A stretch of 27,021 nucleotides of DNA from IMG/VR virus record IMGVR_UViG_3300047496_000141, positions 1 through 27,021 of that record; one strand, 5' to 3'. Position numbers and translations under genes: made by a program. This DNA is from a virus. Shown in pieces: positions 4,174 to 26,540 of the stretch. The notes under the pieces are model-generated. The model did no database searches and was not told the origin of the DNA. It saw only the letters and a program-made list of their open reading frames with translations. Within the stretch, counting starts at the first letter, position 1, and each line of letters begins with the position of its first letter.

Positions 4174-4349
4174 AAGAATACCCCTACGAAGGCGCGCGCA
4201 GTACGCTCTGCTCTTGTGGGAAGGTCTGCTTCGATAAGAAGACTGCCGAGACAAAAGCCAACTTCCTCCACAAACTCGGCAAGGTAAAGAAGCTCACAAT
4301 TTATCCATGTAAGGAATCAGGGAAATGGCATCTAACAAAAGGAAAGTAG
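4170..4349 (+). CDS. Small zinc-binding WHLT-type protein (59 aa)
   Basis: The cluster CSCGKVC (residues 14-20), a helix (TAETKANFLHKL) and the ending YPCKESGKWHLTKGK resemble a family of tiny phage and bacterial proteins that end 'Y.C..C..WHlT'. Here the second Cys of the final pair is replaced (PCKES), while W53 and H54 are kept, so the metal site would use CxC/C plus Cys and His. The start overlaps the preceding gene by ATGA. Function unknown. Confidence 0.6.
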   Translation: MKEYPYEGARSTLCSCGKVCFDKKTAETKANFLHKLGKVKKLTIYPCKESGKWHLTKGK

Positions 4350-5054: not shown

Positions 5055-6780
5055 ACGAAAGAATACGTCGCTGTATGAGTTGGCCTTCGATGACTTCAAG
5101 TCTTTCGTGGAGGGCATTGTCGGCTTGCAGAATCAGTCTTTTCATAATGACATTGACGATGACATTTCCAACCCGATGCACAAGCAGACAGTCATCTCCT
5201 TTCCTCGAGACCACGGCAAGAGCACGCACATTTCCGTAGCGTACCCTCTCTGGGAGATCGCGAAGAACCACAATGTCCGTATCCTTCTCATCTCGGCCAC
5301 TGGTGCAGTGTCGGAGGCTTTCTTGTCTCAGATTGTTGGTCACATCGACCGCAATGAAAACTACCGTGCCTTTGCAACATACATAGACCCACAAGAGCGA
5401 GGAGTCATTCCTCGCATGAAGAACTATGCGAAGAGCCGTGAGAACTGGTCAGGCAAGAGCATCGTCATTGACCGTCCTGAGCTCAACTTGAAAGACTCGA
5501 CCATCGAAGCCGTCGGCGTGCTTGGCTCAATTCTTTCGAAGCGTGCCGACATCATCATCTGTGACGACATCGTGAACCAGGTAAACAGCGCGACCGAGGG
5601 GCAACGTTTGAAAATCATCGACTGGATTTACACCACCATCATGCCGGTGCTTGTGCCTGGAGGAAAGTTTATCTATCTCGGAAACACTTGGCATCAGGAA
5701 GACTTGGTCGCGAAGCTGATGAAAGACCCGCAGTTCCAGTGCAAGAAAAAGATGCCGGCTATTCTTTCGGAGAGCATTCACCCGGAACTCTGGGAGCAGT
5801 GGGCTGGCATCATCATCGATGAATCGCTTTCTGTGGAGGACAGGCATATCAAAGCCGAAGAGTTCTATCAGCTCAATAAGGTTGCGATGGACGAAGGCAC
5901 GAAGGTCTTGTGGCCGACGCGCTATCCGTACAAGAATCTTTATTTGAAACGTCTCTCGAACCCTTATGCTTTCGCTCGCATGTACCAGTGTGATCCAAGT
6001 AATCGACCAGACCAGAAGTTCAAGGACGAATGGCTCGAGCGTGCCATGAAGCGCGGTGCATTGCTCCGGCTCCAAGACGAGAAGCGCACAGGCGTTGAAA
6101 TGGACATCACCACGGAGGGCGTTGACCTTGCTATCTCGGAATCATCAAACTCGGACGACTGCGTCATTCTCTCGCTCGACAAGGTGAGGTACGGCAATGA
6201 ACTCTACAAGACCGGCGACTACATCTTGCGCAACATCAAGCGCGGTAAGTGGACACCGAATCAAGTCAAAGAGAATATCAAGTGGGAATATGAGAATGTG
6301 AAGCCGGACGGCATACGCGTGGAGACTGTCGGCTATCAGGAGGCGATACAGAAAGATCTCGACGATATGGGCGTGCCTGTTCATGGCTACCATACTGGTG
6401 GCGAGAAGAAAGATCCATTCATCGGTATCAACTCTATCGCTATCCTCTTCGAGCTTGGAAAGTTCGTGCTGCCCTACGATCAGAAAGACCCGCGCACTAT
6501 TCAGCTTGTGGCTCAGCTTGTCTCGGAGATGCGCGCATTCCCTGACGGACACACTGGTGACTCCCTCATGGCACTATGGTTTGCCTTTTCTGAGGCTCGC
6601 GATCTTCTCGGAACGAAACCGATGATACCTACGCCGTCGGCTGGTGTCGTGAAGGACTCGCCGGATATGTCCGATGACTTTGTTCTCATGGAGGGAAACA
6701 AGAAAGCAGACCAAGCATTGATACTCGAGCAGCAATACGAACGCTCGAACTTCCAAAACTTAATGCGTATCCGAAGATAG
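5041..6780 (+). CDS. terL: Terminase large subunit, ATPase-nuclease motor (579 aa)
   Basis: Two domains are visible. The ATPase has a Walker A-like loop FPRDHGKS (residues 54-61), a Walker B strand DIIICDD (170-176) and the coupling motif IYLGNTWHQEDL (211-222). The RNase H-like nuclease begins at GVDLAISES (360-368, with the acidic D362) and ends at HTGDSLMALWFAFSEA (504-519, D507). A central acidic candidate lies in VETVGYQEAI (428-437). Length is typical. It cuts concatemeric DNA and pumps it through the portal into the prohead. The start at 5041 overlaps the small subunit stop. Codon usage looks more GC-rich than in the early small genes. Confidence 0.96.
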   Translation: METIERKNTSLYELAFDDFKSFVEGIVGLQNQSFHNDIDDDISNPMHKQTVISFPRDHGKSTHISVAYPLWEIAKNHNVRILLISATGAVSEAFLSQIVGHIDRNENYRAFATYIDPQERGVIPRMKNYAKSRENWSGKSIVIDRPELNLKDSTIEAVGVLGSILSKRADIIICDDIVNQVNSATEGQRLKIIDWIYTTIMPVLVPGGKFIYLGNTWHQEDLVAKLMKDPQFQCKKKMPAILSESIHPELWEQWAGIIIDESLSVEDRHIKAEEFYQLNKVAMDEGTKVLWPTRYPYKNLYLKRLSNPYAFARMYQCDPSNRPDQKFKDEWLERAMKRGALLRLQDEKRTGVEMDITTEGVDLAISESSNSDDCVILSLDKVRYGNELYKTGDYILRNIKRGKWTPNQVKENIKWEYENVKPDGIRVETVGYQEAIQKDLDDMGVPVHGYHTGGEKKDPFIGINSIAILFELGKFVLPYDQKDPRTIQLVAQLVSEMRAFPDGHTGDSLMALWFAFSEARDLLGTKPMIPTPSAGVVKDSPDMSDDFVLMEGNKKADQALILEQQYERSNFQNLMRIRR

Positions 6781-7096: not shown

Positions 7097-7273
7097 ATGA
7101 CCACATTAATATTGTTATGCATCGTTTTTGGGGCTTATTTCCTTCCTTCTATCTGGGCTTACTACGTTAACCATAAGAAGAAAGAAACTATTTTAATCAT
7201 TAATCTTTTTCTTGGCTGGACGTTCGTTGGCTGGGTAGTTGCGCTCGCTTGGTCAGGGACACAATCAAAATGA
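7097..7273 (+). CDS. Superinfection-immunity-like membrane protein (58 aa)
   Basis: Two hydrophobic segments are separated by a short basic loop: MTTLILLCIVFGAYFLPSIW, then AYYVNHKKKET, then ILIINLFLGWTFVGWVVALAW. The motifs YFLPSIWAYY and NLFLGWTFVGWVVALAW are the signature of the Imm_superinfect family (named after T4 Imm). In that family the protein sits in the inner membrane and is linked to blocking entry of DNA from related phages; many homologues in bacteria are uncharacterised. The gene has its own putative leaderless promoter and couples by ATGA to the first glycosyltransferase. Immunity function here is inferred from the family. Confidence 0.8.
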   Translation: MTTLILLCIVFGAYFLPSIWAYYVNHKKKETILIINLFLGWTFVGWVVALAWSGTQSK

Positions 7274-8169
7274 AACTCTCAATCGTCGTTCCGGTTTTAA
7301 ACCAACACGAGCTCGCAAAGGTAGCGCTCGAAGAAACACTTCGAAATCTTGATCTGAGTATTCCTACTGAGGTCGTCATCATCGACAATGGATCGGATGA
7401 ACTTTTTCAGTTCAATTATTTTGTTGGCATCACGAGGATGCATAATGATGGGAACCTTTCAATTCGCGTGGTTCGCAATGAAAAGTCAATCGGTGTCTAT
7501 CCAACATTCAAGCAAGGCATGGCAGAAACTACAGGCGATATTGTCGCCTTTTTTCATTCCGACGTTGTTGTGTGGGAGAAAGGATGGAACGCACGCTTGC
7601 TACAACCATTTGAAAGTTCACCAAACCTCGGTCTTGTTGGCTTCATCGGCTCGAATGAGATTGATTCAAACGGTGGACGTGGAGGAGGAACGACATCGAA
7701 CTTTCAAGGCAAGACGCTCTCCGGAGCAATGAGTGAGACCGGCATCCAGAATCACTGGATAGGTTCTCCGGCCGAAGCCCACGGCAAGCGCTCGCATGGC
7801 TTCTCACAGGCTGCAGTCGTTGACGGTTGCGTCATGGTGCTTAATCGCCAAGCCTGGGAGCGTATTGGCTCGCGCGACAACTTCCCTCCTCATCACTTCT
7901 ACGATCGTCTAATCAGCACTCAGATGCTTGAGGCAGGATTTATGGTGGGTGTCCTCGGCATTGCTTTCGATCATATCTCCGGACAGACAGTCAATCGCGA
8001 ACGAGAGTATCAGGTCATGGCGCACAAATGGCTCTCTGGATGTCATGGTCCTTTTTATGGACTTCCTTTCGTTGAGGGTTTCAATTACGACCTCCCTATG
8101 TACGCGACAGCAGAACGTATGTGGCTGGAAGAGTATCGCGGAAAAGGACTTGTCCCCACTCGAGTATAA
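7270..8169 (+). CDS. GT2-family glycosyltransferase (299 aa)
   Basis: A GT-A fold: the N-terminal strand MKLSIVVPVLNQHELAKVAL, the nucleotide-binding VIIDNGSDE (37-44) and FFHSDVVV (94-101), where HSD stands for the DxD metal motif. I chose the ATG at 7270 (ATGA overlap with the preceding gene) over an in-frame ATG at 7249 inside that gene. The acceptor half holds VDGCVMVLNRQAWERIG, a typical GT2 element near the catalytic base. It would transfer a sugar from a nucleotide sugar; donor and acceptor cannot be told. No membrane segments, so cytosolic. Confidence 0.88.
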   Translation: MKLSIVVPVLNQHELAKVALEETLRNLDLSIPTEVVIIDNGSDELFQFNYFVGITRMHNDGNLSIRVVRNEKSIGVYPTFKQGMAETTGDIVAFFHSDVVVWEKGWNARLLQPFESSPNLGLVGFIGSNEIDSNGGRGGGTTSNFQGKTLSGAMSETGIQNHWIGSPAEAHGKRSHGFSQAAVVDGCVMVLNRQAWERIGSRDNFPPHHFYDRLISTQMLEAGFMVGVLGIAFDHISGQTVNREREYQVMAHKWLSGCHGPFYGLPFVEGFNYDLPMYATAERMWLEEYRGKGLVPTRV

Positions 8170-8177
8170 ATAATCCC

Positions 8178-8207
8178 TTGCGTGGTTCATATATTGGGGA
8201 GTATAGT
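8178..8207 (+). promoter_or_regulatory. Putative leaderless promoter before the gene at 8214
   Basis: TTGCGT (8178-8183), 18 bp, TATAGT (8202-8207), then exactly 6 nt to the ATG at 8214. It lies in a 44-bp intergenic gap, one of the few in this cassette. It shares TTGC(A/G) and the 6-nt geometry with the element at 7062-7090. Confidence 0.5.
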
Positions 8208-8213
8208 TAGCGC

Positions 8214-8402
8214 ATGAGATTTGTCATCAAGGAACTCAAAAATGCCGTCATCGTTCTCGACGCAGAGGGAAGACTTACCGGAATAAAAGCAGAGCACATT
8301 GACTACGGCAGTGAAGAGGAGCAGTACCAAGTGATGGAGATCGTCGGGGGTGAAGGTTTCAAAGGAACAACAAAAGATTTTATTTCATATTCAAAAAAAT
8401 AA
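8214..8402 (+). CDS. Small hypothetical protein (62 aa)
   Basis: A compact, probably alpha/beta polypeptide (MRFVIKELKNAVIVLDAEGRLTGIK...) ending ISYSKK, preceded by its own putative promoter and two bases before the GT75-like gene. No family recognised. Its location inside the sugar cassette may mean a regulatory or accessory role, but this is a guess. Confidence 0.55.
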   Translation: MRFVIKELKNAVIVLDAEGRLTGIKAEHIDYGSEEEQYQVMEIVGGEGFKGTTKDFISYSKK

Positions 8403-8404
8403 TA

Positions 8405-9415
8405 ATGAAAAAAGACACCATCGCTATCGTCGCTCCTGTTCACATTCAGCCTTCTCAGAATTGGATTCAATCGCTCGATGCTGTATCGCGCGGAAAGGAC
8501 AACGTGAAAGTTATCATCGTGGATGATAGCGATGGCAAAGTGAAGCTTCCACCGAATTGGGAAGTGTATGACTATGCAAAGCAAAAAGAGGTTCTCGGTG
8601 AAGAAATGTACAAAGAGTTTGAGCAGTTCCATAAGTCATCAGCATGTAAAAACTTCGGTACGTTCCTCGCTTACGCGCAGGAGTTCGACTACGTCATCAT
8701 TCTCGACTCGGACTGTGTCGTTCCTCCGAACCTCATCAGTCAGCACCTTGAAGCTGTATCGCGCAAGACAACGCTTTGGCAGAACCCTATCAATGGTACG
8801 GATTGGTTTCCTCGCGGTTTTCCTAACTCCGGCCGAGCGCTCCCGGTTGCAGCCAACGTCGGCCTTTGGATTAACGAGTTGGACATCAACGGTAAGGATC
8901 GCGTCGATCGCGGCCAACCGCCACGCGATCATCTCAACTACGGCATCAACCGCGCGTATGGCATCATTCCTTTTTCAGGCATGAATGTTTGTGTGCGAGG
9001 CGAGGACATCCCTGCGCTTCTCTTTCTACCGAACGGAGAGTTCGGAGAGCACAAGTTTCGCCGACATGACGACATCTGGGGTGGTTACATCTTCCAGCGC
9101 ATCATGCGAGACATTCTTTCCAAGGGCATCACTTACGGCGATCCGACAGTCTTTCACGAAACGGAAGTGAACGCAGCAGAGGACGCGGCAGCCGAGCTTG
9201 GCATGGGAGCGATGGAGGACGAGTTCTATCTTTTCGTGGAGGATTGTTTCAAGAGTATGCCGGTTGTTGGCTTGGAAGATGCACCGACAGCAATGGAGTT
9301 CTTCGCTCGAGCGTTTGAAAAGAAATGCGACAAGTGGGATGGCTTTGCTTGCTTCATCCCTGCTTTCAAGTTCTGGACAAAATTATTCACGCCGGTTAAA
9401 GAAGAAACAAAATAA
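8405..9415 (+). CDS. Reversibly glycosylated polypeptide / UDP-arabinopyranose mutase-like protein, GT75-like (336 aa)
   Basis: The order of conserved blocks matches plant and bacterial RGP (GT75) proteins. They are VIIVDDSD (37-43), HKSSACKNFGTFLAY (76-90), an acidic DSDCVVPP (101-108) where plants have DDDC, WQNPINGTDWFPRGFPNS (125-142), GMNVCVRGEDI (192-202) and the late HDDIWGGYIF (221-230) equivalent to 'YDDMWAG'. Family members interconvert UDP-arabinopyranose and UDP-arabinofuranose and self-glycosylate on an Arg. Related proteins can have other donors. In this cassette it may prepare a furanose sugar for the neighbouring GT2 enzymes. The exact activity is not proven by motifs. Confidence 0.8.
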   Translation: MKKDTIAIVAPVHIQPSQNWIQSLDAVSRGKDNVKVIIVDDSDGKVKLPPNWEVYDYAKQKEVLGEEMYKEFEQFHKSSACKNFGTFLAYAQEFDYVIILDSDCVVPPNLISQHLEAVSRKTTLWQNPINGTDWFPRGFPNSGRALPVAANVGLWINELDINGKDRVDRGQPPRDHLNYGINRAYGIIPFSGMNVCVRGEDIPALLFLPNGEFGEHKFRRHDDIWGGYIFQRIMRDILSKGITYGDPTVFHETEVNAAEDAAAELGMGAMEDEFYLFVEDCFKSMPVVGLEDAPTAMEFFARAFEKKCDKWDGFACFIPAFKFWTKLFTPVKEETK

Positions 9416-10032
9416 TGACTCCACATCTTTCAATCATAATCACCGTTCATAATCGTCTCGAATACACCAAGCGCACGCTTGAATCTCTCTTTGCCTCTGT
9501 TCCTTGGGCAAGATTTTTTATTATCGACAACGACTCAACCGAGGCCGGAATGTACGAATACTTGAAAAGTGTTGCTGGTAAGAATGTTAAAGTGATCATG
9601 AATGGAAACAATGAGGGCTGGGGAGCTTCGGTCAATGAAGCAATTCGATTGATGGATATTGAGTTTCCGATTAAGACTGAGTTTCTTTTGATTTCAAATA
9701 ATGATGTTGTCTATCAGAAAGATTGGTTTCAAAAACTTTTCGCACTCTACGAGAAGTACCCAAAGGTTGGCATCATGGGAGTTTGGAAACATACCGCGCA
9801 CGGAACGCGCGAGGACTTCGGAGACATGGTCAGCAAGGACAACATGCCTGCAGTCGGTTGGCTTCTCAAGCGTTCGGTCATGTCACGCCTTGGCTTTCTT
9901 CCTGAGCACGGTCCTTGTGAAACAAAAGGAGGCAACGGTGAGGACACCGGATATGCAATGCGCGCATTAGAGCAGGGGTATTTGGTCGCTGCCCCGAAGG
10001 AGGATGTAGCTGTACACATAGATGGATACTAA
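9415..10032 (+). CDS. GT2-family glycosyltransferase, short form (205 aa)
   Basis: Starts MTPHLSIIITVHNRLEYTKR with the GT2 Rossmann-like strand, then FFIIDNDS (34-41) and LLISNNDVVY (91-100), where NND is the DxD equivalent. The C-terminal half has the 'GWLLKRSVMSRLGFLPE' acceptor element and GNGEDTGYAMRALEQGY. Lacks a membrane or C-terminal extension. It shares one base with the upstream stop codon and overlaps the methyltransferase by 11 nt. Donor and acceptor unknown. Confidence 0.87.
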   Translation: MTPHLSIIITVHNRLEYTKRTLESLFASVPWARFFIIDNDSTEAGMYEYLKSVAGKNVKVIMNGNNEGWGASVNEAIRLMDIEFPIKTEFLLISNNDVVYQKDWFQKLFALYEKYPKVGIMGVWKHTAHGTREDFGDMVSKDNMPAVGWLLKRSVMSRLGFLPEHGPCETKGGNGEDTGYAMRALEQGYLVAAPKEDVAVHIDGY

Positions 10033-10552
10033 CGAAATCAAAGGCTGGTTTCCTCCGGAGAGTGCAGCCACTCTGGAAAGGCTCATCAAGGAGCACAACA
10101 TCAAGTCGGTTCTCGAGGTCGGTACGTTCGTAGGTAAATCGGCACTGTTCTTTTCAAAGCTTGTAGATAAAGTTTTTTGTGTCGATACTTTCGAGAAGAA
10201 CAATGAACTGCGCGAGAATGGAGTGGATGTGAAAGAGGATTTCTTTGGAGAGTTCAAAGATAACATGATCAAGTCCGGCGCGTGGCCTAAGCTTCATGTG
10301 ATGAGAATGAACTCGAAAGAAGCTGCAGAGCTTTTTGTTGAAGGCACGCATAAGCCAGCAGAACTTATTTATTTGGATGCCTCGCATGATTTTGGAAATG
10401 TTCTGAGAGATATCATGCTTTGGACTCCGTTAGCAGGGAGCATTATTTGTGGTGACGACTACGATGAAAATTGGCCAGGAGTTAAACAGGCTGTCGATAG
10501 ATATTTTTATAACGCGAAAGTCGAAGGGAGGTTTTGGTTCGTAATTTTATAA
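10022..10552 (+). CDS. Class I SAM-dependent methyltransferase, Methyltransf_24 type (176 aa)
   Basis: SVLEVGTFVGKSALFFSKL (29-47) is motif I of the SAM-binding Rossmann fold. VFCVDTFEKN (51-60) is the acidic end of strand 2 that holds the SAM ribose. IYLDASHDFGNVLRD (116-130) and IICGDDYDENWPGV (141-154) fit the Methyltransf_24/TylF-like group, which methylates sugar or amino-sugar hydroxyls and other small acceptors. The gene sits between two glycosyltransferase genes, so O-methylation of the glycan is the natural guess. The start overlaps the preceding gene, so expression is probably coupled. Confidence 0.82.
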   Translation: MDTNEIKGWFPPESAATLERLIKEHNIKSVLEVGTFVGKSALFFSKLVDKVFCVDTFEKNNELRENGVDVKEDFFGEFKDNMIKSGAWPKLHVMRMNSKEAAELFVEGTHKPAELIYLDASHDFGNVLRDIMLWTPLAGSIICGDDYDENWPGVKQAVDRYFYNAKVEGRFWFVIL

Positions 10553-10556
10553 TCAA

Positions 10557-11417
10557 ATGCCAAAAGTACAAATCATCATACCCGCAATAAACTTGTGGAA
10601 GAAGTACACGAAGCCTTGCATCGACTCTATCAAAACGAAATATGATCACCGGATATTGCTCATCGACAATGCAAGCGAGGACGAAACTATCGTTGAAGCC
10701 GGTAAGCTTGTTTCCTCAAAGTTCTGCCATCAGCGAAACGAAGATCGCTGGGGTTGTTCTCAGAGCTGGAACTTCGGCATTCGAGACGCTTTCCAACGAG
10801 GATACGATTATGTCCTTGTCCTCAACAACGATGTTCTACTTCACCCGAAAGCTATAGACATGCTTGTGGCGCGGTTCGAGCAAGCGAAGATGCGCTCTGT
10901 CGCGGTGAAAGTGGACGCAGCAAAACATGCTGGCTTCCTAGGCGAGGTCACTCCGAAAGATGCAGAGATGACGGAAAGGCGTTTGGAATTTTCGCAGCTC
11001 GCAATGGTCACGATGGTCAACGAGCGCGCACATTGTCCCTATCCCGAGTTCATCTTCACTAAAAGCATCGAAGGACGTGAGGTCAACGAAGAGCAGGAGC
11101 ATCCGGACTTCTCAGCGTACATGCTCTCAAAGGAATCGTACGAAAAGATTGGAGCGTTCGATGAAATGTTTGCACCGGCGTATTTCGAGGACAACGACTA
11201 TCATCGCAGGGTCAATCTCGCCGGAATGAAAGCCATCTCTGTTCCCTCAGCAATCTATTACCACTACGGCTCGCGCACGAGAATGGAGTCTGGGACGCTC
11301 AACCTCACGAACGAAAACTTTGAGAAGAACCGCCAGTACTATATTCAGAAGTGGGGAGGGATACCGGGTCAGGAAAAGTTTGATCAGCCTTTCAACAAAT
11401 TAAAAGATAATAAATAA
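10557..11417 (+). CDS. GT2-family glycosyltransferase (286 aa)
   Basis: Canonical GT2 layout: VQIIIPAINLWKKYTKPCIDSI at the N-terminus, ILLIDNASED (33-42), RWGCSQSWNFGIRDA (64-78), then VLVLNNDVLLHP (86-97) with the NND metal motif. FDEMFAPAYFEDNDYHRRV carries the ED-type catalytic acidic residues, and AIYYHYGSRTR the late His. This is closest in style to rhamnosyl- or galactofuranosyl-type GT2 enzymes (GlfT, RfbF-like), without proof of the donor. Coding runs cleanly between the methyltransferase and the dehydratase. Confidence 0.9.
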   Translation: MPKVQIIIPAINLWKKYTKPCIDSIKTKYDHRILLIDNASEDETIVEAGKLVSSKFCHQRNEDRWGCSQSWNFGIRDAFQRGYDYVLVLNNDVLLHPKAIDMLVARFEQAKMRSVAVKVDAAKHAGFLGEVTPKDAEMTERRLEFSQLAMVTMVNERAHCPYPEFIFTKSIEGREVNEEQEHPDFSAYMLSKESYEKIGAFDEMFAPAYFEDNDYHRRVNLAGMKAISVPSAIYYHYGSRTRMESGTLNLTNENFEKNRQYYIQKWGGIPGQEKFDQPFNKLKDNK

Positions 11418-11423
11418 AAAATC

Positions 11424-12506
11424 ATGACAAAGAAAATCCTCATCACAGGTGGCGCAGGTTTCGTAGGACATCACTTCATCGAACATATCCTCAAGAACAC
11501 GGACTGGCGTATCGTGTGTCTCGACCGGCTTGATTGTTCCGGAAATCTCAATCGCCTCACGGACATGGCTATCTGGGAAACTCAGAAGCATCGCGTGAAG
11601 TTCTTCCACCACGACCTTCGTGCCGAGATTAACGATCAGGTCTGTCGCTTGCTCCTCATGGAAGCAGGAAATGAACTTCCTCAGCCTTTCGACTACGCAG
11701 TTCACTTCGCAGCCGGTTCTCATGTTGATCGAAGTATCAGCGATCCGCTCGGCTTCTTCATGGACAACACCATCGGCTCAGTCAACTTCCTCAACTTTTT
11801 CCGCGTGTTCAAGGAATGGGCGCTCAAGCCGACTTCGAAGATCATCTACTTCTCAACAGACGAAGTCTTTGGTCCGGCTCCAAAGGGCGTGGCGTACAAG
11901 GAATGGGATCGCTACAACTCCGGCAATCCATACTCGGCAGCAAAGGCCGGTGGAGAGGAAGCAGCACTTGCGTTCGCGAACACTTACAAGCTTCCGATCA
12001 TTGTCACGCACACGATGAACATCTTCGGAGAGCGCCAGCACCCGGAGAAATTCATTCCGCTCATCATCAAGAAGATCCTCAAGGGCGAAACGATGACGAT
12101 TCACTCGAATAAGGAGAAGACAGAGAGTGGTACACGTTACTACCTCCACGTTCGAAACGTATCTTCAGCTACGATGTTCCTTTTGGAGAACGGTAAAGTC
12201 CTCGATGGTAGCGGTCATGTCGGTAAGTACAACATCGTAGGCGATCAGGAAGTATCCAACCTGCACATGGCTCAGCTTGTTCACAAATTCGTTAATGAAT
12301 GGGAAGCAGAACAGGGCTTGCCTCTTTCTCCTCTCTCAACTGAAATGGTGGACTTCCACAGTTCGCGCCCAGGTCACGACCTCCGCTATGCACTTGATGG
12401 TGGACTTATCAAGTCAGAAGGTTGGGTAGCGCCGTTGACTTTTGAAGAAAGTTTGAAGAAGACAGTTTATTGGACACTCAACAACAAGAAAAAGTGGTTG
12501 ATGTAA
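11424..12506 (+). CDS. NAD-dependent sugar-nucleotide dehydratase/epimerase, RmlB-like (360 aa)
   Basis: An extended short-chain dehydrogenase. GGAGFVG (residues 9-15) binds NAD. HFAAGSHVDRSISDP (94-108) and IYFSTDEVFG (141-150) follow, where T145, D146 and E147 match the dehydration residues of dTDP-glucose 4,6-dehydratases ('STDEVYG'). Y170 and K174 (YSAAK) form the YxxxK pair. MNIFGERQHPEKFIPLII and RYYLHVRNVSSA match the substrate-binding half. Such enzymes turn NDP-glucose into the 4-keto-6-deoxy intermediate for deoxysugars. No RmlA, RmlC or RmlD appears in the window, so the host may supply them, or the enzyme has another NDP-sugar substrate. Confidence 0.9.
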   Translation: MTKKILITGGAGFVGHHFIEHILKNTDWRIVCLDRLDCSGNLNRLTDMAIWETQKHRVKFFHHDLRAEINDQVCRLLLMEAGNELPQPFDYAVHFAAGSHVDRSISDPLGFFMDNTIGSVNFLNFFRVFKEWALKPTSKIIYFSTDEVFGPAPKGVAYKEWDRYNSGNPYSAAKAGGEEAALAFANTYKLPIIVTHTMNIFGERQHPEKFIPLIIKKILKGETMTIHSNKEKTESGTRYYLHVRNVSSATMFLLENGKVLDGSGHVGKYNIVGDQEVSNLHMAQLVHKFVNEWEAEQGLPLSPLSTEMVDFHSSRPGHDLRYALDGGLIKSEGWVAPLTFEESLKKTVYWTLNNKKKWLM

Positions 12507-17956: not shown

Positions 17957-18766
17957 ATGACTGCAAATCGAGTAACGCAATTTGGTGGAGGAAATTCGGG
18001 AGGTTCTTCCGCTCTCCCTCTTAATGCCATTCAGCTCGGTAACGGAGCTGGCGGTTTTAAAACAGTCGCAGGAACTACGCTCGACGTCACAGGAAATGCT
18101 CGAGGAACTGGTGCCCTTGATATTCAAAGTGTCCGCTCCGCAGTTACTCAAGTGGCTTCTGGATTTAATGCTTTTGCTCTTGGACTTCGGGAAGAGGCTT
18201 CTGGTGACAGTAGTCTTGCGCTTGGAACAGACAATGTGGCTGCGGGGACCAGTGCTTACGCTATTGGAGCGGGTAACACAGCCTCCATCGCAGGAGATGT
18301 TGCTATTGGTGGTGGAAATACTGCACAAGGAGGTGCGAGTACCGCGATCGGAGTAGGGAATACGGTGTTTGGAAGTGGCGCTATGGCGTTAGGACGTAGT
18401 TGTATAGCCTTTGCTGCGAACTGCATCGCTATGGGTATTTCCATAGCAAACTTTGTCGCGAACTCCCTTGAGATTGGAGCTTCAAACGCTGAAAAGGTAC
18501 GTATCGACGCAAATGGAGTAAACAGCATCACAGCAGCAGGATACTACCTCAGAAACGGAGTCCCTATCTTTAACGGAATTTTAGCAGCAACAGGCACTGT
18601 CAACGGCAGCAACACAGTCTTCACTTTTGCCTATGCTCCCCAGATCATCGTAGTAGACGGCGGAAAATTTATGCAGCAAACCTCAAGTGACGGAACGGTG
18701 AACTGGACGGGCACGACAACAATAACTTTAACAGTAGCACCTAACTTTGATATTTTTGGAATCTAA
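17957..18766 (+). CDS. YadA-head-like fibre protein (269 aa)
   Basis: The start at 17957 is 4 nt after the preceding stop. Residues about 70-160 consist of roughly 14-residue repeats of the type ASGDSSLALGTDNV, AAGTSAYAIGAGNT, AQGGASTAIGVGNT, VFGSGAMALG. This is the left-handed beta-roll of YadA/Hia-type adhesin heads, also common in phage fibres. The C-terminal domain (ATGTVNGSNTVFTFAYAPQI, VVDGGKFMQ, then TTTITLTVAPNFDIFGI) looks like a receptor-binding or trimerisation tip. No signal peptide. Likely a trimeric tail fibre or head fibre; its position next to the portal is odd for a tail fibre. Confidence 0.75.
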   Translation: MTANRVTQFGGGNSGGSSALPLNAIQLGNGAGGFKTVAGTTLDVTGNARGTGALDIQSVRSAVTQVASGFNAFALGLREEASGDSSLALGTDNVAAGTSAYAIGAGNTASIAGDVAIGGGNTAQGGASTAIGVGNTVFGSGAMALGRSCIAFAANCIAMGISIANFVANSLEIGASNAEKVRIDANGVNSITAAGYYLRNGVPIFNGILAATGTVNGSNTVFTFAYAPQIIVVDGGKFMQQTSSDGTVNWTGTTTITLTVAPNFDIFGI

Positions 18767-18770
18767 ACAT

Positions 18771-18827
18771 ATGAAAAAAATAATTTACATTTTGTTGTTC
18801 GCGCTCATGCCAGTTATTTCACAGGCG
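18771..18827 (+). other. Predicted signal-peptide coding segment
   Basis: It encodes Lys-Lys, a hydrophobic core (IIYILLFALMPVI) and SQA before an AFPASW mature start, matching the small-residue rule at -3 and -1. Read directly from translation; secretion is inferred. Confidence 0.7.
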
Positions 18828-21800
18828 GCCTTTCCAGCATCATGGCAGGCAACTTCTACCACCCAGGGCTCAATCTCTCCGGTGAGAATAAACGGAACAG
18901 ATCAAGCTGTGATGGCAACGTATTTCATGGCCACCTCAACCTCAGCCACTTCTACTTTCGCGAATGGAATCAATCTTACAAAAGGCTGTTTTTCAATAAA
19001 TACACTTTGTCTCACCCAAAACTCAGGCACGGTCACATCGGTAGCGATGACAGTCCCAACAGGATTATCCGTCTCCGGCTCACCAATTACTAATTCGGGT
19101 ACTTTTGGATTAACTTTGACAGCTGGGTACAATATCCCCTTAACAGCTTCGACCACGCAATGGAATAATCTTTACCAAAGTTCAACGACTTTACCATATG
19201 TTACTTCGGTGAATATTACTGTACCGACAGGACTTTCAATTAGCGGTTGTCCCGTAACATCCTCAGGAACTTGCGCGATTTCACTTGGCGCTGGATATGT
19301 CATACCACTTACGGCTTCAACAACGCAATGGAATGCTCTTGTGGCTGCATCAACTTCTCTTCCTTATGTTACTTCCGTGGGACTTACAGTTCCAACCGGA
19401 CTTTCAGTATCTAACTCTCCGATCACATCTTCAGGAAATATCGGACTTTCACTTCAATCCGGCTACAATATTCCGCTTAACGCTTCGACTACGAATTGGA
19501 ATAATTTTTTTAACACGCCTTCAAGTCAAATCACAGCAGGAACGAATCTCTCATGGTCCGGAAATACATTGAACGCATCGGGTGGCGGTGGTGGATCGGG
19601 AATGGTCGGAACTTCCACAGTCCCAACAGTCGGACAGCTTGCTTACTGGACTAGTAATGGAACACCCTCACTTCTGGGTTCAGAAGCCACGAGTGCGCCG
19701 AGCCTCGGTTTGGGTCTTACCTATACCGGAAATCTAGGATATTTTGCCAGCGGTACAAGTGGAACTCTTAATATTGCAACTTCCTCTTTATACACAGGAA
19801 GTACAGGTCAGGTTGCTTATTTTAATGGAACAAATGCAATTTCTGGAAATTCCGCTGTATTCATTTCAGCTTCGAACAATGTTGGAATCAATAACACTTC
19901 TCCAACTCAAGCGCTTGATGTTGGAGGTTTTATAAACACAGACCAGTTCTCAGGATATAAGCAAGCGGGAAGCTTGCTGGGCTACGCTTCTTCTACAAAC
20001 CAAGCTACCATTTGGGGAATTATTGCCGGAGGAAACAACGCGACAACTTCGGCGACAATCGGAGAAACTACGGCCATTGGATATAGTGCGCTCAATGCCC
20101 TTACTACTGGAACCTCAAATACCGCCGTCGGTGATTTTGCAGGTAAGTTTCTCACTACTGGTATTGGAAACGTGGCATTGGGTAGCAATGCTTTGCGTGG
20201 CTTTTCAGCAGGTTCACCACTTACCGGAACTGGAAACATTGCAATCGGAACAAGCTCACTTCTTCAAGTCACTGGCGCAGCTTCAAGCAATATCGGTATC
20301 GGAGGATATGCTCTCGCTTCTATCGGCTCAGGTTCAAACAACATTCAAATTGGAGCGAATCCCGCTATTGGTGGCGGTATTCTTTCGGGTTCAGCAGCAA
20401 GCAACATTCTGATTGGTAACGGAGTCACCGCTCCGACCGCAGCAGGTAGCAACCAGCTCAATATCGGAAATACTATCTTCGGCTCCAACATATACAGTAC
20501 TCAAAGTACGGTTAGCTCTGCTCCTGTTGCAAACAGTTCTATCGGAATCGGGACAAGTACTGCAATCGCAAAGTTCGCAATTCAAGGAAACTCAAGCGAC
20601 ACATACGCAAACCTTTTTCTCATCGCTTCCTCAACTCCAACAGCGACAACAACTCTCTTGAATCTCACGAATGCAGGACAGCTTAATGTAAACGGGTTTA
20701 TAAATACCGACCAGTTCTCAGGATATAAACAAAACGGCACGACGATTTTATACGCTTCTTCCACAAACCGCTCTATGGCAGTAGGAGTTTCGGCAGGTGG
20801 AACTTCATTTCAGAATTTCTCTACACCTGTTGACGATACCTTTGTAGGCAACAACTCAGGTCGAGGTCTTGCAACTACCAACGCAGGAGGAAATACTGGC
20901 TTGGGTTCTGCGGCTTTGAGTGTTTCTTCAAACCTCACCGGAGCAGCAAACACAGCAATCGGAGTTTCTACTTTGGCGGCAAACAATACAGGTCAGTACA
21001 ACACAGCATTGGGAGCAAGTGGTTGTACAATAAACGCAGCAGGTTCAGGAAATCTTTGTCTCGGGGCAAATGCGGGAACTAAAATAAACAGTTCGAGTAA
21101 CTTTGTTCTCAACGCTTCCACTACCGCGTACTCCACCCTTGCACTTGAGAAGACCAACTCCATGATGTTTGGCACGTTTGCCAACAATGGAAACGCTCAG
21201 GCTCTTGCCATCAATGCACTTACTGGAATTGGAACCACAACTTCAATCGCAAAGCTCGCCGTTCAATCAGTCGCAACAGACGCAACGCAGTATCTTTTCG
21301 ACGTAGCTACAACTTCGGGTGCCGCTGTATTTGATGTCACAAGCAATGGAAACGTCGGTATCGGTACATCATCACCGTCACAAGTGCTTTCTCTTGTGGG
21401 CGGTATTTATGCCTCATCGACAGCGACTTCAACATTCCTGGGAGGAGGCATCAATCTCATCACCGCAGCGGGTAACATTCCTTGCTATGCTGTGAACGGT
21501 ACTTGCATTACACAAAATGCAGGAACTGTGACTTCGGTTGCAGCTACAGTGCCTTCTATTTTTTCGATCTCCGGCTCACCTATAACCGGGGCAGGAACGC
21601 TTGCAATGACCTACAGCGGCACTGCTCTGCCTGTTGCGAACGGTGGAACCGGACAGACAACTTTCGGTCAAGGTTGGCTCAGTTCTGACGGAACGACAAT
21701 CACTTCTTCGACTTCGCCAACGGTAAATTACATCACTGCAACCTCCACGACAGCAACTTCAACTTTTGGTTATGGAATCAATCTCCAAGGTGGTTGTTTC

Positions 21801-23072
21801 GCAATCGCAACAGTTTGTATCGGAGGTGGTTCAGGAACAAACTACTTCACAAACACGGGCAATGATACGTTGCTCACTACCGGTACTTTCCTCGATGTCC
21901 CTGCGACTGGCGGATATAATATTGGCGCGTCTTTGCTCGGTTATGCTTCCTCAACTAATCAAGCTACGATCTGGGGACTTGGTGCAGGTGGAAATAACGC
22001 AACAACCTCGGCAACTGTAAAAGGAGCAACTGCGCTCGGCTACCACGCACTCACTTCACTTTCTACTGGCAATGGAAACACCGCAGTCGGTTGGAATAGT
22101 TTGTCACTTGATACCACAGCTCCAAACAACACCGCAGTCGGTTTTGGTGCGCTCTGGGGAACCGGAGCTTTTGGAGCAACCGGAAACAACACTGCTATCG
22201 GTTACGAAGCTGCAGCATCCACCACGAGCGGAAACAACAACACCTTTGTGGGAAGCAATGCCGGAACTTTCGTCAGTTCTGGTTCGCAGAACGTTGCAAT
22301 CGGTGTGACTTCTCTTTACGGTCTTTCTGCTGCAATCACTGGCTCGGATAACGTCGCCATCGGTAACAGTTCTATGCTGCAATTGAATGGAGCTGCTGCA
22401 GCGAACATCGGTCTTGGTTTTAACTCTCTTTCTGCTCTTGGTACTGGTTCAAACAACATTCAAATCGGGGCATATAACTCAAGCGGTGGTATAAACGGAA
22501 GTGCATCTTCCAACATTATGATTGGAAACGGTGTACAAACTCCAAGCGTATCAGGCAGCAACCAACTCAACATAGGCAATGCAATTTACGGTTTGAACAT
22601 GTACGGAAATCTAAACACAATATCTTCCGCTCCGAATGCAAACGCTTCAATCGGTATCGGAACTTCAACCGCAATTTCAAAGTTCGCAATCAGCCTCAAT
22701 AGCAATGACACTCTCGGTAATGCTTTCCTAGTGAGCTCTTCTACTGCCTCAGCGACAACAACTCTTTTCGGAATCACAAATACCGGACACATTTTTGGAA
22801 CTTCTACAAACCCAGTTCTCTCATCATGCGGTACAAGTCCAACAATAGTAGGAAGCGACTCGCACGGAACTATCACTGTTGGCTCTGTTTCGGCCACAGG
22901 CTGTACTATGACTTTCTCAACTCCTTATGCAACCGCACCAAGTTGCGTAATCAGCAACCGAAGTATGTCAGTAGTAAATGCTCTAACGTACACCGTCACG
23001 ACATCTGCACTTACACTCACGCAAACCGGACTTACCGGAGATTTGATTGATTATATCTGTATGCAAAATTAA
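18771..23072 (+). CDS. Giant repeat-rich fibre/adhesin with N-terminal signal peptide (1433 aa)
   Basis: Start at 18771 (an in-frame ATG at 18747 lies in the previous gene). Residues 1-19 are a textbook signal peptide (MKKIIYILLFALMPVISQA). A Ser/Thr-rich module follows (WQATSTTQGSISP, MATSTSATSTFANGINL), of a kind I recall from secreted CPR proteins. Residues about 88-269 are three tandem beta repeats (VTSV..TVPTGLSVS.SPITSSG, with ASTTQWN linkers). YadA-head repeats (AIGYSALNALTTGTSNTAVG type) occur around 435-600, 670-770 and 1087-1270. PVANGGTGQTT near 955-970 is a tail-fibre motif. The C-terminal domain (CGTSPTIVGSDSHGTITVGS) matches phage-fibre tips. The signal peptide conflicts with a cytoplasmically assembled fibre, so export to the host envelope is a real alternative. 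Confidence 0.8.
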   Translation: MKKIIYILLFALMPVISQAAFPASWQATSTTQGSISPVRINGTDQAVMATYFMATSTSATSTFANGINLTKGCFSINTLCLTQNSGTVTSVAMTVPTGLSVSGSPITNSGTFGLTLTAGYNIPLTASTTQWNNLYQSSTTLPYVTSVNITVPTGLSISGCPVTSSGTCAISLGAGYVIPLTASTTQWNALVAASTSLPYVTSVGLTVPTGLSVSNSPITSSGNIGLSLQSGYNIPLNASTTNWNNFFNTPSSQITAGTNLSWSGNTLNASGGGGGSGMVGTSTVPTVGQLAYWTSNGTPSLLGSEATSAPSLGLGLTYTGNLGYFASGTSGTLNIATSSLYTGSTGQVAYFNGTNAISGNSAVFISASNNVGINNTSPTQALDVGGFINTDQFSGYKQAGSLLGYASSTNQATIWGIIAGGNNATTSATIGETTAIGYSALNALTTGTSNTAVGDFAGKFLTTGIGNVALGSNALRGFSAGSPLTGTGNIAIGTSSLLQVTGAASSNIGIGGYALASIGSGSNNIQIGANPAIGGGILSGSAASNILIGNGVTAPTAAGSNQLNIGNTIFGSNIYSTQSTVSSAPVANSSIGIGTSTAIAKFAIQGNSSDTYANLFLIASSTPTATTTLLNLTNAGQLNVNGFINTDQFSGYKQNGTTILYASSTNRSMAVGVSAGGTSFQNFSTPVDDTFVGNNSGRGLATTNAGGNTGLGSAALSVSSNLTGAANTAIGVSTLAANNTGQYNTALGASGCTINAAGSGNLCLGANAGTKINSSSNFVLNASTTAYSTLALEKTNSMMFGTFANNGNAQALAINALTGIGTTTSIAKLAVQSVATDATQYLFDVATTSGAAVFDVTSNGNVGIGTSSPSQVLSLVGGIYASSTATSTFLGGGINLITAAGNIPCYAVNGTCITQNAGTVTSVAATVPSIFSISGSPITGAGTLAMTYSGTALPVANGGTGQTTFGQGWLSSDGTTITSSTSPTVNYITATSTTATSTFGYGINLQGGCFAIATVCIGGGSGTNYFTNTGNDTLLTTGTFLDVPATGGYNIGASLLGYASSTNQATIWGLGAGGNNATTSATVKGATALGYHALTSLSTGNGNTAVGWNSLSLDTTAPNNTAVGFGALWGTGAFGATGNNTAIGYEAAASTTSGNNNTFVGSNAGTFVSSGSQNVAIGVTSLYGLSAAITGSDNVAIGNSSMLQLNGAAAANIGLGFNSLSALGTGSNNIQIGAYNSSGGINGSASSNIMIGNGVQTPSVSGSNQLNIGNAIYGLNMYGNLNTISSAPNANASIGIGTSTAISKFAISLNSNDTLGNAFLVSSSTASATTTLFGITNTGHIFGTSTNPVLSSCGTSPTIVGSDSHGTITVGSVSATGCTMTFSTPYATAPSCVISNRSMSVVNALTYTVTTSALTLTQTGLTGDLIDYICMQN
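19032..19575 (+). repeat. Three tandem protein-coding repeats in the giant fibre
   Basis: Three successive units of about 55-60 codons begin VTSVAMTVPTGLSVSGSPIT, VTSVNITVPTGLSISGCPVT and VTSVGLTVPTGLSVSNSPIT. Each is followed by an L..GY.IPL.ASTT.WN segment. Repeats of this kind form elongated fibre shafts. Confidence 0.75.
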
Positions 23073-23111: not shown

Positions 23112-23705
23112 ATGAACAAATTCAAAAAACACTGGATTGAAAAAGGACTCGGTGACAACATCGTAAACATTTCCGATGCTGGCGATATTCCAGAATCGCT
23201 CCTCGCACGACAAGATCTCGAGAATGAGAACAACAAGCAAAGCACGAAATCCACTTTCATGGTTGGTGACATTGTTTGTCTCAGTCCTGGGGTTGATGGA
23301 AAGGTCATCGGTATCAATGGTTCAAAGTATGTCGTTATGACCACGATCGGAACGGAAGAAACGATTGACCAAGAATGGATTGATGCCGGAAATGTCACTC
23401 TCAAAGGAGCAGTTGAACAGACCGGAAAAGATCTCGACAAGCTTAAGGAGAAAGCAGCTGACGCGGACACCGAGGGAGAAAAAGACTCGATTGCGGGTAG
23501 AATTAAGTCAGCGCAAGAAAAGCGACAAAAAGCAACGATTGTCGCTCGGGAGAAAGAATCAACCGAAAAGTCCTTTAAAAACTTTTGGAAGAACAGCATC
23601 GAAAAAGGTAAGGGGATGGAGGACTGCGCGGAGTGCAAGGGCAGCGGAAAGATGGAGAAAGCAAAATGCACGCATTGTGATGGCGCCGGAGTAGTCACAA
23701 ACTAA
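23112..23705 (+). CDS. Zinc-finger protein sharing its N-terminus with the capsid protein (197 aa)
   Basis: Three parts. Residues 1-37 end in IPESLLARQDLE and align without gaps to residues 1-36 of the major capsid protein (15 identities in the last 20 positions). Residues about 48-100 (FMVGDIVCLSPGVDGKVIGI...) look like a small SH3-like beta barrel. After a charged helical stretch, the C-terminus has CAECKGSGK (172-180) and CTHCDGAG (186-193), two CxxCxGxG knuckles as in one zinc site of DnaJ. It sits right before the protease and has its own putative promoter. An assembly chaperone or capsid-associated protein is plausible. Not a known family to me. Confidence 0.75.
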   Translation: MNKFKKHWIEKGLGDNIVNISDAGDIPESLLARQDLENENNKQSTKSTFMVGDIVCLSPGVDGKVIGINGSKYVVMTTIGTEETIDQEWIDAGNVTLKGAVEQTGKDLDKLKEKAADADTEGEKDSIAGRIKSAQEKRQKATIVAREKESTEKSFKNFWKNSIEKGKGMEDCAECKGSGKMEKAKCTHCDGAGVVTN

Positions 23706-23707
23706 TC

Positions 23708-25393
23708 ATGGAAAAGAAAATTATTATCCAGGCGCAAGGGGACTTCCCTTTCACCTTCTATATCGAAAAAGCTATACCGACTGAGGAGAACGGTGCGCTC
23801 TTCGTCGAAGGAATCGCCTCCACGATTAATGTAGACCACGACAATGAACGCATGGCAGCTGAAGCTCTTGTTTCGATGGCGAACATCATCAACGAGACCG
23901 GCGTTCCTCTCCGCATCGAACACAGCAAGGCAGACAACGCAATCGTAGGCAAAGTATTCAAGGCTTGGGTTGATGAAAGAAACCAGCTTTGGATTAAGGC
24001 CGCGATCGACCCGGAGCATCCAGCAGGTCCCCTGATGCACGCCTCGCTCAAGCAAGGCACAAAGATGGGACTTTCGGTGGGTGGGAGGGTGAAGAACGCG
24101 GTCAAGGAAATGGTCGAGTCCACCGGAAAGATGATCAAGACGTTCTACGACGTGATGCTCGACGAAGTTTCAGTCACCACACGACCGGCGAACTATGATG
24201 CTTGGCTGGTTGCGAAGAGCATAGCGACAAAAGGGGACGACGTTTCAAGATTTTATAAGTCAAACCTTTACCGAGAATTTCTTTTCGAGAATCCGAAGTT
24301 CGATTACATGCAAAGTTTTGCAAAGTCGGTGCCAGAGGGTTCTTGGAAAAGGACGGAGAAGGATTATCAAATAATTAATAAAGAAGCCATGAACGAAAAA
24401 GATAAAGAAAAGAAGGAGAAGTCAGCAGACGACATGAAGGATGAGAAGAAGGAAAAGTCCGCTGAAGATATGAAAGACGAGAAGAAAGAAAAATCAGCGG
24501 AGGATGAGAAGAAGGAAAAGTCCGCTGACGACAAAAAGGAGGACACGGAGAAGTCCGTTTCCAAGGGTGAGTTCAACGCACTCAAGAGCATGGTTGAAAA
24601 GGGTTTCAATTCGATGTTCGACCTCGTGAAGGCAATGTCTACTGAAGCGAAGCAGACAACCAACCCGGACAAGGACAAAGAGGCTGATGACACGCAGCAA
24701 ACTGCCAAGGCTGAGAATGGTGAAGCGAAAGACACGACCAATCCGGACAAGGACAAGAAAGCGGAAGTTGGTGACGAGGCAAAAAAGGCTCAAGAAGACA
24801 AGGGCGGTGAGAAAAAGGAAAAGGCGCGCGATGGTCAGGAGGATTCGAAAGGCAACGGTGATGATGAGAAGGGTGAGCGTGAGAAGGCTCAGAAAGATGC
24901 AAAGGACGACGGTGAGGCAGACAGCAAGTACGAGATGAAGAGCGTATCCGACGCTATCGGAAAAATGCAATCAATGACTAAAACACTTCGCGGCGAGAAA
25001 GTGACGAAGAGCAAGGAAGTACGAAAGTCTTCCCTGTCCGAAATGGATGTCTTCGCGATCACTGTAGCGGAGAGCATTGACGCCCTCGCAGAACGCTTCG
25101 AAAAAGGCGGAAAGCGAGTACCAGGCTTGTCGCAGGCTTTGGTAGATGAAATCAAGAGCGATCCAGTGCTCCAGAAGAGCATTAAGGAGATGCTTAAGAT
25201 GCCAGGCGAAAAGCGTTCAGTTTCTATGGGAGTACCTTACATGGTTGACAAGACCGGTAAGAAATATGCTCTCACAGCGACTGAAATCAGCGACACCGTC
25301 CAAAAAAGCAAGAAGGAAAACACCGGTAAGTCATTCAGGGACGTATACAAAACTAACTTCTCTTCTTTCGGTCACAACGAAGGAAACGAGTAA
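23708..25393 (+). CDS. Prohead protease fused to a scaffold-like domain (561 aa)
   Basis: Residues about 15-170 form an HK97-type (S78/U35-like) prohead protease. The blocks are VEGIASTINVDHDNERM, LRIEHSKADNAIVGKV with H72, KMGLSVGGRV with S123, and LDEVSVTTRPAN with E153, matching the His-Ser-Glu triad order. The rest (about 225-560) is extremely charged: KEKSA(D/E)D-type repeats, TTNPDKDK repeats, then helical VFAITVAESIDALAERFEKGG, typical of delta/scaffold domains. It should guide capsid assembly and then cut the capsid N-terminus and itself. The in-frame ATG at 24389 could give a free scaffold protein. It starts 2 nt after the preceding stop. Confidence 0.88.
   Translation: MEKKIIIQAQGDFPFTFYIEKAIPTEENGALFVEGIASTINVDHDNERMAAEALVSMANIINETGVPLRIEHSKADNAIVGKVFKAWVDERNQLWIKAAIDPEHPAGPLMHASLKQGTKMGLSVGGRVKNAVKEMVESTGKMIKTFYDVMLDEVSVTTRPANYDAWLVAKSIATKGDDVSRFYKSNLYREFLFENPKFDYMQSFAKSVPEGSWKRTEKDYQIINKEAMNEKDKEKKEKSADDMKDEKKEKSAEDMKDEKKEKSAEDEKKEKSADDKKEDTEKSVSKGEFNALKSMVEKGFNSMFDLVKAMSTEAKQTTNPDKDKEADDTQQTAKAENGEAKDTTNPDKDKKAEVGDEAKKAQEDKGGEKKEKARDGQEDSKGNGDDEKGEREKAQKDAKDDGEADSKYEMKSVSDAIGKMQSMTKTLRGEKVTKSKEVRKSSLSEMDVFAITVAESIDALAERFEKGGKRVPGLSQALVDEIKSDPVLQKSIKEMLKMPGEKRSVSMGVPYMVDKTGKKYALTATEISDTVQKSKKENTGKSFRDVYKTNFSSFGHNEGNE
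24401..24550 (+). repeat. KDEKKEKSAED-type tandem repeats in the scaffold region
   Basis: Within the protease-scaffold gene, four imperfect units encode KEKSADDMKDEK, KEKSAEDMKDEK, KEKSAEDEK and KEKSADDKK. Unit length is 9-12 codons. The repeat is coding and intrinsically disordered; slippage may change copy number between related phages. Confidence 0.7.
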
Positions 25394-25400
25394 GACCCAT

Positions 25401-25421
25401 GTGGCTCCAGTCGTGGAGCAC
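25401..25421 (+). other. Hairpin in the protease-capsid gap
   Basis: GCTCCA (25404-25409) pairs with TGGAGC (25414-25419) around a GTCG loop, with two further outer pairs. No T run follows, so it is not a standard terminator; it may stabilise or process the capsid mRNA. It may also be chance within a coding-like stretch. Confidence 0.3.
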
Positions 25422-25490
25422 TTCGCTGGCTCGGCAGGGAAATCAATCTTGGCCGAAACCAGATCAGCTGATGGGAAAATTATCAAGTAA
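25401..25490 (+). CDS. Possible GTG-started mini-protein before the capsid gene (29 aa)
   Basis: Between the protease and capsid genes there are 109 bp. One frame is open with coding-like composition and reads MAPVVEHFAGSAGKSILAET, then RSADGKIIK, if GTG at 25401 is the start. It is in the capsid frame, but two stops (25488-25490 and 25494-25496) separate it from the capsid ATG. No convincing ribosome binding site is seen. It may be a real peptide, a frameshift extension of the scaffold, or a remnant. Confidence 0.25.
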   Translation: MAPVVEHFAGSAGKSILAETRSADGKIIK

Positions 25491-25502
25491 CTTTAAATCA
25501 CC

Positions 25503-26540
25503 ATGGACAGAGGAAGACTCGAAAAAGCATTGGAGCGATTTGAGAAGTCAGTGAACATTGCATTCGCTGGACCAACCCCAAACTCCCTCCTCGCGCGACA
25601 AGACCTGGAATCAGCGATTGTCGTTTTGTCAGACCGCCTCACTCCTTTCCGAGATCGTGTATCTCGCATCAAGGGAGAAGGCCTCGCACACTTGTGGAAC
25701 CAGCGAACACGCCTCGATAACGTCGCAGACGGACCAGCTGGCCTCGTGCAACTCTTCTACGCAGACGGAAACCTGCCAAGTACGACAGATCCGAACTACG
25801 TGCAGAAGACAGCAGCTTACAAGTACCTCGGTACTACAGCTGTTATCACTGGACCTATGATCGCATCCGGCCGATCATATATCGACATCGAAGCTGAAGT
25901 AGCGGAAGCATCCCTTCGCCGAATCATTCAGGCAGAGGAATGGGCGGACTTCCACGGCGACTCAAGCATCAACACCTTGTCTTACGACGGGTTCGATGTG
26001 GGAATTGTCACGAATGTCGGTAACAACGCAGCAGCAGCGCTCACAGCCACCGGCGTCACGATTCCGGCTGTCGATAAGATCATCAAGCTTATCCGCCTCC
26101 AGGGTGGAAACAAGCTCGACGGAATCTACTGCTCGTTCGGCATTCAGACGGTGATCAACCAGATCATCTCTCCTGCAGCACGTTACGTCATCTCCCTCGA
26201 TAGCCGAGAGAACCTCATCACGGCCGGAGATCACGTTGTTTCCTACCAGTCACCACTCGGACCTATTCCGGTTATTGGTAACTTCTTCTGTAACCCAGCG
26301 CTTCCTTACCCTATCAACCAGGCTGGATCATCCGGACCAACAGGAAACTTGGTCTCCAATCTTTACCTCCTTCGTCACGATGAGCAGGGCGTACAGATGG
26401 CTGATCTCGTTCCATTGGGACGAACGGAGCTCGCGAAGATCGCCGACACGGTGCGATTCTACCTCAATGAGTACCTCGTACTCATGCTCAAGGCTGAGCC
26501 TTGGGTCGGTATGGTCATCAACGTTTCGGACCCTGCTTAA
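25503..26540 (+). CDS. Major capsid protein, HK97-fold type (345 aa)
   Basis: Placed directly after the protease. WNQRTRLDNVADGPAGLVQL, then FYADGNLPSTTDPNYVQ and AYKYLGTTAVITGPMI resemble the N-arm/E-loop region. EAEVAEASLRRIIQAEEWAD is a spine-like helix. QTVINQIISPAARYVISLDS and a C-terminal RFYLNEYLVLMLKAEPWVGM resemble P- and A-domain elements of HK97-like capsids. Residues 1-36 (MDRGRLEKALERF...SLLARQDLE) match the N-terminus of the zinc-finger protein at 23112 and may be a processed or scaffold-binding segment. No good Shine-Dalgarno is visible. Confidence 0.85.
   Translation: MDRGRLEKALERFEKSVNIAFAGPTPNSLLARQDLESAIVVLSDRLTPFRDRVSRIKGEGLAHLWNQRTRLDNVADGPAGLVQLFYADGNLPSTTDPNYVQKTAAYKYLGTTAVITGPMIASGRSYIDIEAEVAEASLRRIIQAEEWADFHGDSSINTLSYDGFDVGIVTNVGNNAAAALTATGVTIPAVDKIIKLIRLQGGNKLDGIYCSFGIQTVINQIISPAARYVISLDSRENLITAGDHVVSYQSPLGPIPVIGNFFCNPALPYPINQAGSSGPTGNLVSNLYLLRHDEQGVQMADLVPLGRTELAKIADTVRFYLNEYLVLMLKAEPWVGMVINVSDPA

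Follow-up and report, generated by a model that had tools for sequence, protein, structure and literature searches.

A repeat of the major capsid protein arm in a second head-cluster protein points to a possible reusable docking unit for recruitment into the immature phage head

In phage T4, the capsid-targeting sequence (CTS) of the internal proteins IPII and IPIII is a short conserved peptide on variable proteins that is linked both to entry into the prohead and to cutting by the prohead protease (PMC9958956). Several internal head proteins of SPN3US and phiKZ share a protease cut motif (PMC10052503), and the HK97 major capsid protein (MCP) is cut at K103/S104 (PMC10275583). Beyond T4 and HK97, little is known of how phage proheads take up their maturation proteases and internal proteins. 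Here we describe a 20-residue module that occurs twice in a 27,021-nucleotide stretch of viral DNA (IMG/VR record IMGVR_UViG_3300047496_000141, positions 1 to 27,021; hereafter, the window), once in the MCP and once in a second product of the head gene cluster, the partner. From this repeat we suggest that the MCP arm may serve as a docking piece that can be reused by proteins destined for the immature head.

Residues 18 to 37 of the partner align without gaps with residues 17 to 36 of the MCP, with 15 of 20 identical. A search of the window with the MCP N-terminal arm returns exactly two matches, the MCP and the partner (E 7e-17 and 2e-5, respectively), and no third copy. The MCP N-terminus scores 71 against the partner, and the maximum among 1000 shuffles of the partner is 49. 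The original prediction, made from these letters alone, had reported this match near both protein starts in genes flanking the protease; its coordinates and translations are correct, and a 561-residue protease-scaffold does lie between the two genes. The features concerned are as follows (an arrow marks a cut throughout).

23112..23705, + strand: partner protein, 197 amino acids (aa), mosaic product of the head gene cluster with the second module copy
23163..23222, + strand: module copy in the partner, residues 18-37, VNISDAGDIPESLLARQDLE
23708..25393, + strand: prohead protease fused to scaffold, 561 aa, without the module (phrog_9427)
24215..24220, + strand: K170-S171, end of the protease catalytic domain; aligns with the K↓S ahead of the module in Herelleviridae proteases
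25503..26540, + strand: MCP, 345 aa, phrog_752 family
25545..25550, + strand: K15-S16, predicted MCP maturation cut; K15 invariant in 16 relatives
25551..25610, + strand: module copy in the MCP, residues 17-36, VNIAFAGPTPNSLLARQDLE, probable arm of the mature protein

Sharing of the module extends well beyond the window. Searches with the MCP yielded about 32 IMG/VR records with close MCPs (65-86% identical), and none was found in GTDB genomes. Among records extending 1.88 kb or more beyond the MCP module in the upstream direction, a 23-residue arm query found exactly two copies in 24 of 24 (window included), one in the MCP and the other in a protein encoded upstream of the protease-scaffold. 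No further copies occur elsewhere on contigs of up to 67 kb, including those of 61-67 kb, and the records with one or zero arm matches are those that end short upstream of the MCP. Even in one relative, L082/L113 (relatives are designated by L numbers), where the partner lies 8 kb upstream, past a giant open reading frame (ORF), the module is present. A search of related phage genomes, which the original prediction had proposed, thus recovers both copies in every sufficiently long record, and the sharing of the module between MCP and partner is confirmed as real and general.

Both copies are ancient, and selection on the peptide maintains them. In the nine-codon core of the window's copies, 4 codons are identical and 5 differ, all 5 synonymously, as originally reported. 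When the two cores of the same genome are compared across 17 non-redundant genomes, 49 codons are identical, 86 show synonymous differences, and 18 show nonsynonymous differences, supporting the selection on the peptide that had been proposed from the window alone. Codons for the same residue are identical in 36% of cases within a genome and in 34% between the MCP and partner of different genomes (permutation p 0.24), indicating that the copies have not been homogenised. Synonymous divergence and the lack of excess codon identity within genomes exclude gene conversion and recent duplication. That the similarity reflects chance, convergence, or a functionless recent duplication might be entertained given that the genes are neighbours and the segment is short and N-terminal, but it is refuted by the 24 of 24 records with exactly two copies, by the 86 synonymous changes among 104 codon differences with no within-genome excess, and by an independent counterpart, described below, in the protease of a different phage family; its likelihood is negligible. 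Two genomes have an A-to-S change at module position 10 in the MCP and partner copies alike (p 0.01), which, with so few events, is weak evidence.

The position of the module is best read from the MCP family. Residues 83-261 of the window MCP match residues 91-269 of phrog_752 (major head protein, Herelleviridae-type; E 3.9e-16), a family that also takes in SPO1 gp6.1 and the Kayvirus MCP, and the only significant PDB profile matches are the Kayvirus and SPO1 MCPs. An invariant K precedes the module in the window-family MCPs (FEK15↓S16V). The A511 record annotates mature Cps from residue 24, equivalent to K23↓S24, and the deposited Kayvirus MCP chains of 463 and 439 residues, taken with the alignment offset, place the cut at K24↓S25. 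Because the K of the window family stands where the A511, Kayvirus, and HK97 proteins are cut, the module is probably the arm of the mature MCP, directly following a K15↓S16 maturation cut and lying outside the removed propeptide.

This placement modifies the earlier suggestion of a protease-cleavage tag. The link to a cut holds, in that every MCP has a K ahead of the module, as do 19 of 20 distinct partners (5 to 7 residues ahead of the module's AG), but homology with A511, Kayvirus, and HK97 puts the cut N-terminal of the module, which would stay on the mature MCP and not be cleaved off. A T4-style cut after the LE of SLLARQDLE was rejected, the residues past LE being unlike in the two carriers and K↓S matching the A511, Kayvirus, and HK97 sites. 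K-S dipeptides are more numerous than expected in scaffolds (77 versus 36.5) and partners (29 versus 13.6) and not in other ORFs (328 versus 351), a pattern that fits scaffolds and partners being substrates of a K↓S protease.

A parallel case occurs in the Herelleviridae, linking the module to head assembly as the original prediction had supposed: the same MCP segment is present in their prohead protease. A Kayvirus genome, searched with its own MCP arm, gives one additional match (58% over 33 residues). It falls within the prohead protease, directly behind the catalytic domain (ESFMK↓SFLTGHGTSPDTQVDAGALRKE aligned with EDVVK↓SFQTGYGITPDTQIDAGALRRE). By eye, the Kayvirus stretch GALRREILDDQITMLTWTNEDLIFYRDISR resembles NSLLARQDLESAIVVLSDRLTPFRDRVSR of the window. 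The two Kayvirus proteins also match each other's profiles, with MCP residues 20-58 matching the protease profile phrog_1028 (E 3e-15) and protease residues 153-208 matching the MCP profile phrog_752 (E 4e-6). Across phage records, the arm search produced 1144 matches in 589 records, or about two each. Checked by sequence, the second copy follows the protease domain in Kayvirus, A511, EF24C, Grass, Agatevirus, LpeD, CM1, Lb 3-521, SPO1, and LP65 and, outside the Herelleviridae, in Bordetella phage PHB04 and Thermus phage Lalka27a. Lalka27a is the weakest of these cases, because its carrier is unannotated, matches no Pfam or PHROG entry, and is called a protease from its place in the cluster and the alignment. 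The protease copies tested by shuffling scored above 1000 of 1000 shuffles, and the same test found no MCP-arm copy in the proteases of HK97, D3, phiC31, and T4, ruling out such a copy as a general property of prohead proteases. No earlier description of the sharing between protease and MCP was found in a literature search that largely excluded subscription journals, and one may exist for SPO1-like phages.

In the window, the module score of the protease-scaffold is at shuffle level, and the carrier is instead the product of the gene at 23112. The window-family protease nevertheless keeps a K-S at the end of its catalytic domain (PANYDAWLVAK170-S171 versus NPANPEATWESFMK-S). These observations bear on the possibility that the module is an extended protease-recognition site, in which K↓x and the next 20 residues form one long substrate read on a protease exosite. 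The Herelleviridae copy would then imitate a substrate within the protease and hold the enzyme inactive until self-cleavage, and the window partner would be a substrate or a trans regulator. The K ahead of nearly all copies, the location of the Herelleviridae copy directly behind the S78 catalytic domain, and the K-S enrichment in the partner as well as the scaffold all fit this alternative. Against it, the scaffold has many K-S dipeptides without a module, the window partner retains the module without a K, the window-family protease retains K170-S171 without a module, and conservation runs 20 residues beyond the cut, past the usual protease subsites. On balance, we regard an extended recognition site as unlikely.

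The observation most in favor of recruitment is that a separate protease carries the arm, whereas a protease fused to the scaffold lacks it and another protein carries it in its place. We lean toward the MCP arm being a docking unit that is reused to recruit a second protein into the prohead and to expose it to K↓S cleavage. The unit would consist of the arm at the N-terminus of the mature MCP and the K↓x cut ahead of it, with a second head-assembly protein carrying a copy. The copy would dock in the prohead site of the MCP arm, either on a neighboring MCP subunit or on the scaffold that the original prediction had named; the neighboring MCP is as likely a receptor as the scaffold. The carrier would thereby become a sub-stoichiometric part of the inner face of the prohead, exposed there to the prohead protease, which would cut it at K↓x just ahead of the arm. 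The part upstream of the cut would be freed inside the head, and the arm-bearing part would stay with the shell. In the Herelleviridae, the carrier would be the protease, which as a separate protein has to find its way into the prohead, and in the window family, where fusion to the scaffold would leave the protease with no need of a tag, it would be the mosaic partner. More tentatively, and short of probable, the arm copy may, in phages with this MCP family, be a general unit of prohead entry and cleavage that can move between carriers, being found on the maturation protease in some lineages and on a rapidly reshuffled cargo protein in others.

Several points weigh against this docking model. 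That the partner docks, ends up in proheads or virions, and is cut there is inferred. The sole partner lacking a preceding K is the window's own, which has N there. Module position 11, an invariant R in the MCP, is freely variable in partners, and binding may therefore differ between the two copies. An AlphaFold2 model of the MCP built from 16 rows reached a predicted local distance difference test (pLDDT) score of 34, at which the arm contacts are not readable.

The carrier of the window family is a fast-changing mosaic protein, probably internal to the head or cargo-like. With the module masked, partners have in common only scattered cassettes, among them a C-terminal helical hairpin with an FKxxW motif, 'AYAVCTA', a rubrerythrin-like hairpin, 'FAVWYYD', and occasional zinc motifs. 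The helical hairpin (residues 96-153 in the window) is the commonest C-terminal cassette and the only part of the partner for which AlphaFold2 was reliable. Across 14 aligned partners, the invariant columns are M1, the A, G, P, L, Q, D, L, and E of the module, a Q and an R of the hairpin, and the F and W of FKxxW. The module is the sole part common to all partners of otherwise different make-up, and it begins anywhere from residue 23 to residue 266. A search of viral contigs with the partner protein alone returned zero relatives, because just short pieces are conserved. Some partners (those of L061, L069, L064, L074, and L078) have a rubrerythrin/ferritin-like hairpin (EEsxGAxKYxxIGDxFxEMAxxEExH) before or after the module, to which Pfam Rubrerythrin matches are weak. 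The remaining features of the partner and scaffold are as follows.

23121..23138, + strand: FKKHWI, first FKxxW copy, at the partner N-terminus
23397..23570, + strand: predicted helical hairpin of the partner, residues 96-153 (pLDDT ~90 for residues 100-140)
23574..23591, + strand: FKNFWK, second FKxxW copy of the partner; F and W invariant in the partner alignment
23625..23678, + strand: CxxC...CxxC, half of a DnaJ-type zinc motif of the partner; few relatives have one
25334..25351, + strand: FRDVYK near the scaffold C-terminus, related to the partner FKxxW

The partner had at first been called a zinc-finger protein, a name that its half DnaJ-type motif supports weakly. DnaJ_CXXCXGXG (PF00684) scores 19.5 bits against it, below the gathering cut-off of 32.7, and covers 24 of 65 profile positions; the four CxxCxGxG repeats of that domain were not found in the window partner. 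Motifs of the CxxC...CxxC type occur in 4 of about 20 distinct partners, which rules out a zinc finger as the defining feature. It is incidental, the partner being a mosaic of cassettes whose universal part is the module.

FKxxW may be a second motif of head assembly. F(K/R)xxW is present at both the N- and C-terminus of the partner, and F(K/R)xx(Y/W)K lies a few residues ahead of the scaffold C-terminus in nearly every family member examined. The scaffold C-terminus usually binds the MCP in other phages, and it is on this analogy that a role in assembly is suggested. F(K/R)xx(W/Y) also opens some SPP1-gp7-like minor head proteins and other small late proteins (in relatives, L092:16353-16946, L094:6507-6944, and L100:12014-13166). 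The motif enters into a further alternative, that the carrier mimics the arm to fill special positions of the lattice, such as the five arm positions that go unoccupied when a portal stands in place of a capsid pentamer. The partner or the protease tail would then belong to the portal vertex or be a minor component of the shell. Such a role is in keeping with a copy of the MCP arm in carriers whose genes adjoin those for portal, protease, and MCP; however, an FKxxW common to the partner and the scaffold C-terminus points inward and not to the shell. We consider this alternative quite improbable.

In some relatives, the MCP gene is interrupted within the module, between the codons for SLLAR and QDLE, by intron-like inserts (L021:3060-4090, L019:1366-2390, and L023:3380-3725). 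The L023 insert matches the Rfam group I intron (62.8 bits), and those of L019 and L021 contain a 263-aa ORF resembling a homing endonuclease. L023 has a second interruption of the MCP gene, after VQKTA, with an endonuclease-like ORF between the MCP parts (3702-5560). The module copy of the partner is never interrupted by an insert.

Directly 5' of the window partner is a 1441-aa repetitive fibre-like ORF (18747-23072), and L113 likewise has a repetitive, fibre-like ORF upstream of its partner. Between terminase and portal (7249-12506), the window contains a run of ORFs that by eye resemble glycosyltransferases, a methyltransferase, and a nucleotide-sugar epimerase, an unusual content for a head gene cluster.

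A near-identical peptide in a shell protein and in a recruited protein would be a concrete candidate for a binding element, and modules of this kind are present in much-used laboratory and therapy phages (SPO1, relatives of phage K, and A511). If the arm is indeed a docking unit, foreign proteins could be loaded into these heads by a simple route, and the arm would be a natural tag, transferable between proteins, for filling HK97-fold heads; it would also account for how a hypervariable cargo gene keeps its place in the virion.

Among described systems, the T4 CTS is likewise a short conserved peptide on a variable carrier. Unlike the CTS, which is N-terminal, is removed, and does not copy the MCP, the window module follows the predicted cut, can lie anywhere in its carrier, and equals the MCP arm. 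In SPN3US and phiKZ, only a short motif is common to the internal proteins, the cut is in an N-terminal propeptide, and a shared MCP arm is not described. HK97 similarly has a K↓S cut of an HK97-fold MCP but differs in its 103-residue delta domain and in a protease without a copy of the MCP arm. Closest is the Herelleviridae protease (phrog_1028/Peptidase_S78; SPO1 gp3.2, A511 gp015, and Kayvirus), in which a segment of a homologous MCP (phrog_752) and a K↓S likewise recur in a second protein of the head cluster. There the carrier is the protease, whereas in the window a mosaic protein unrelated to it is the carrier, and the scaffold-fused protease has no copy.

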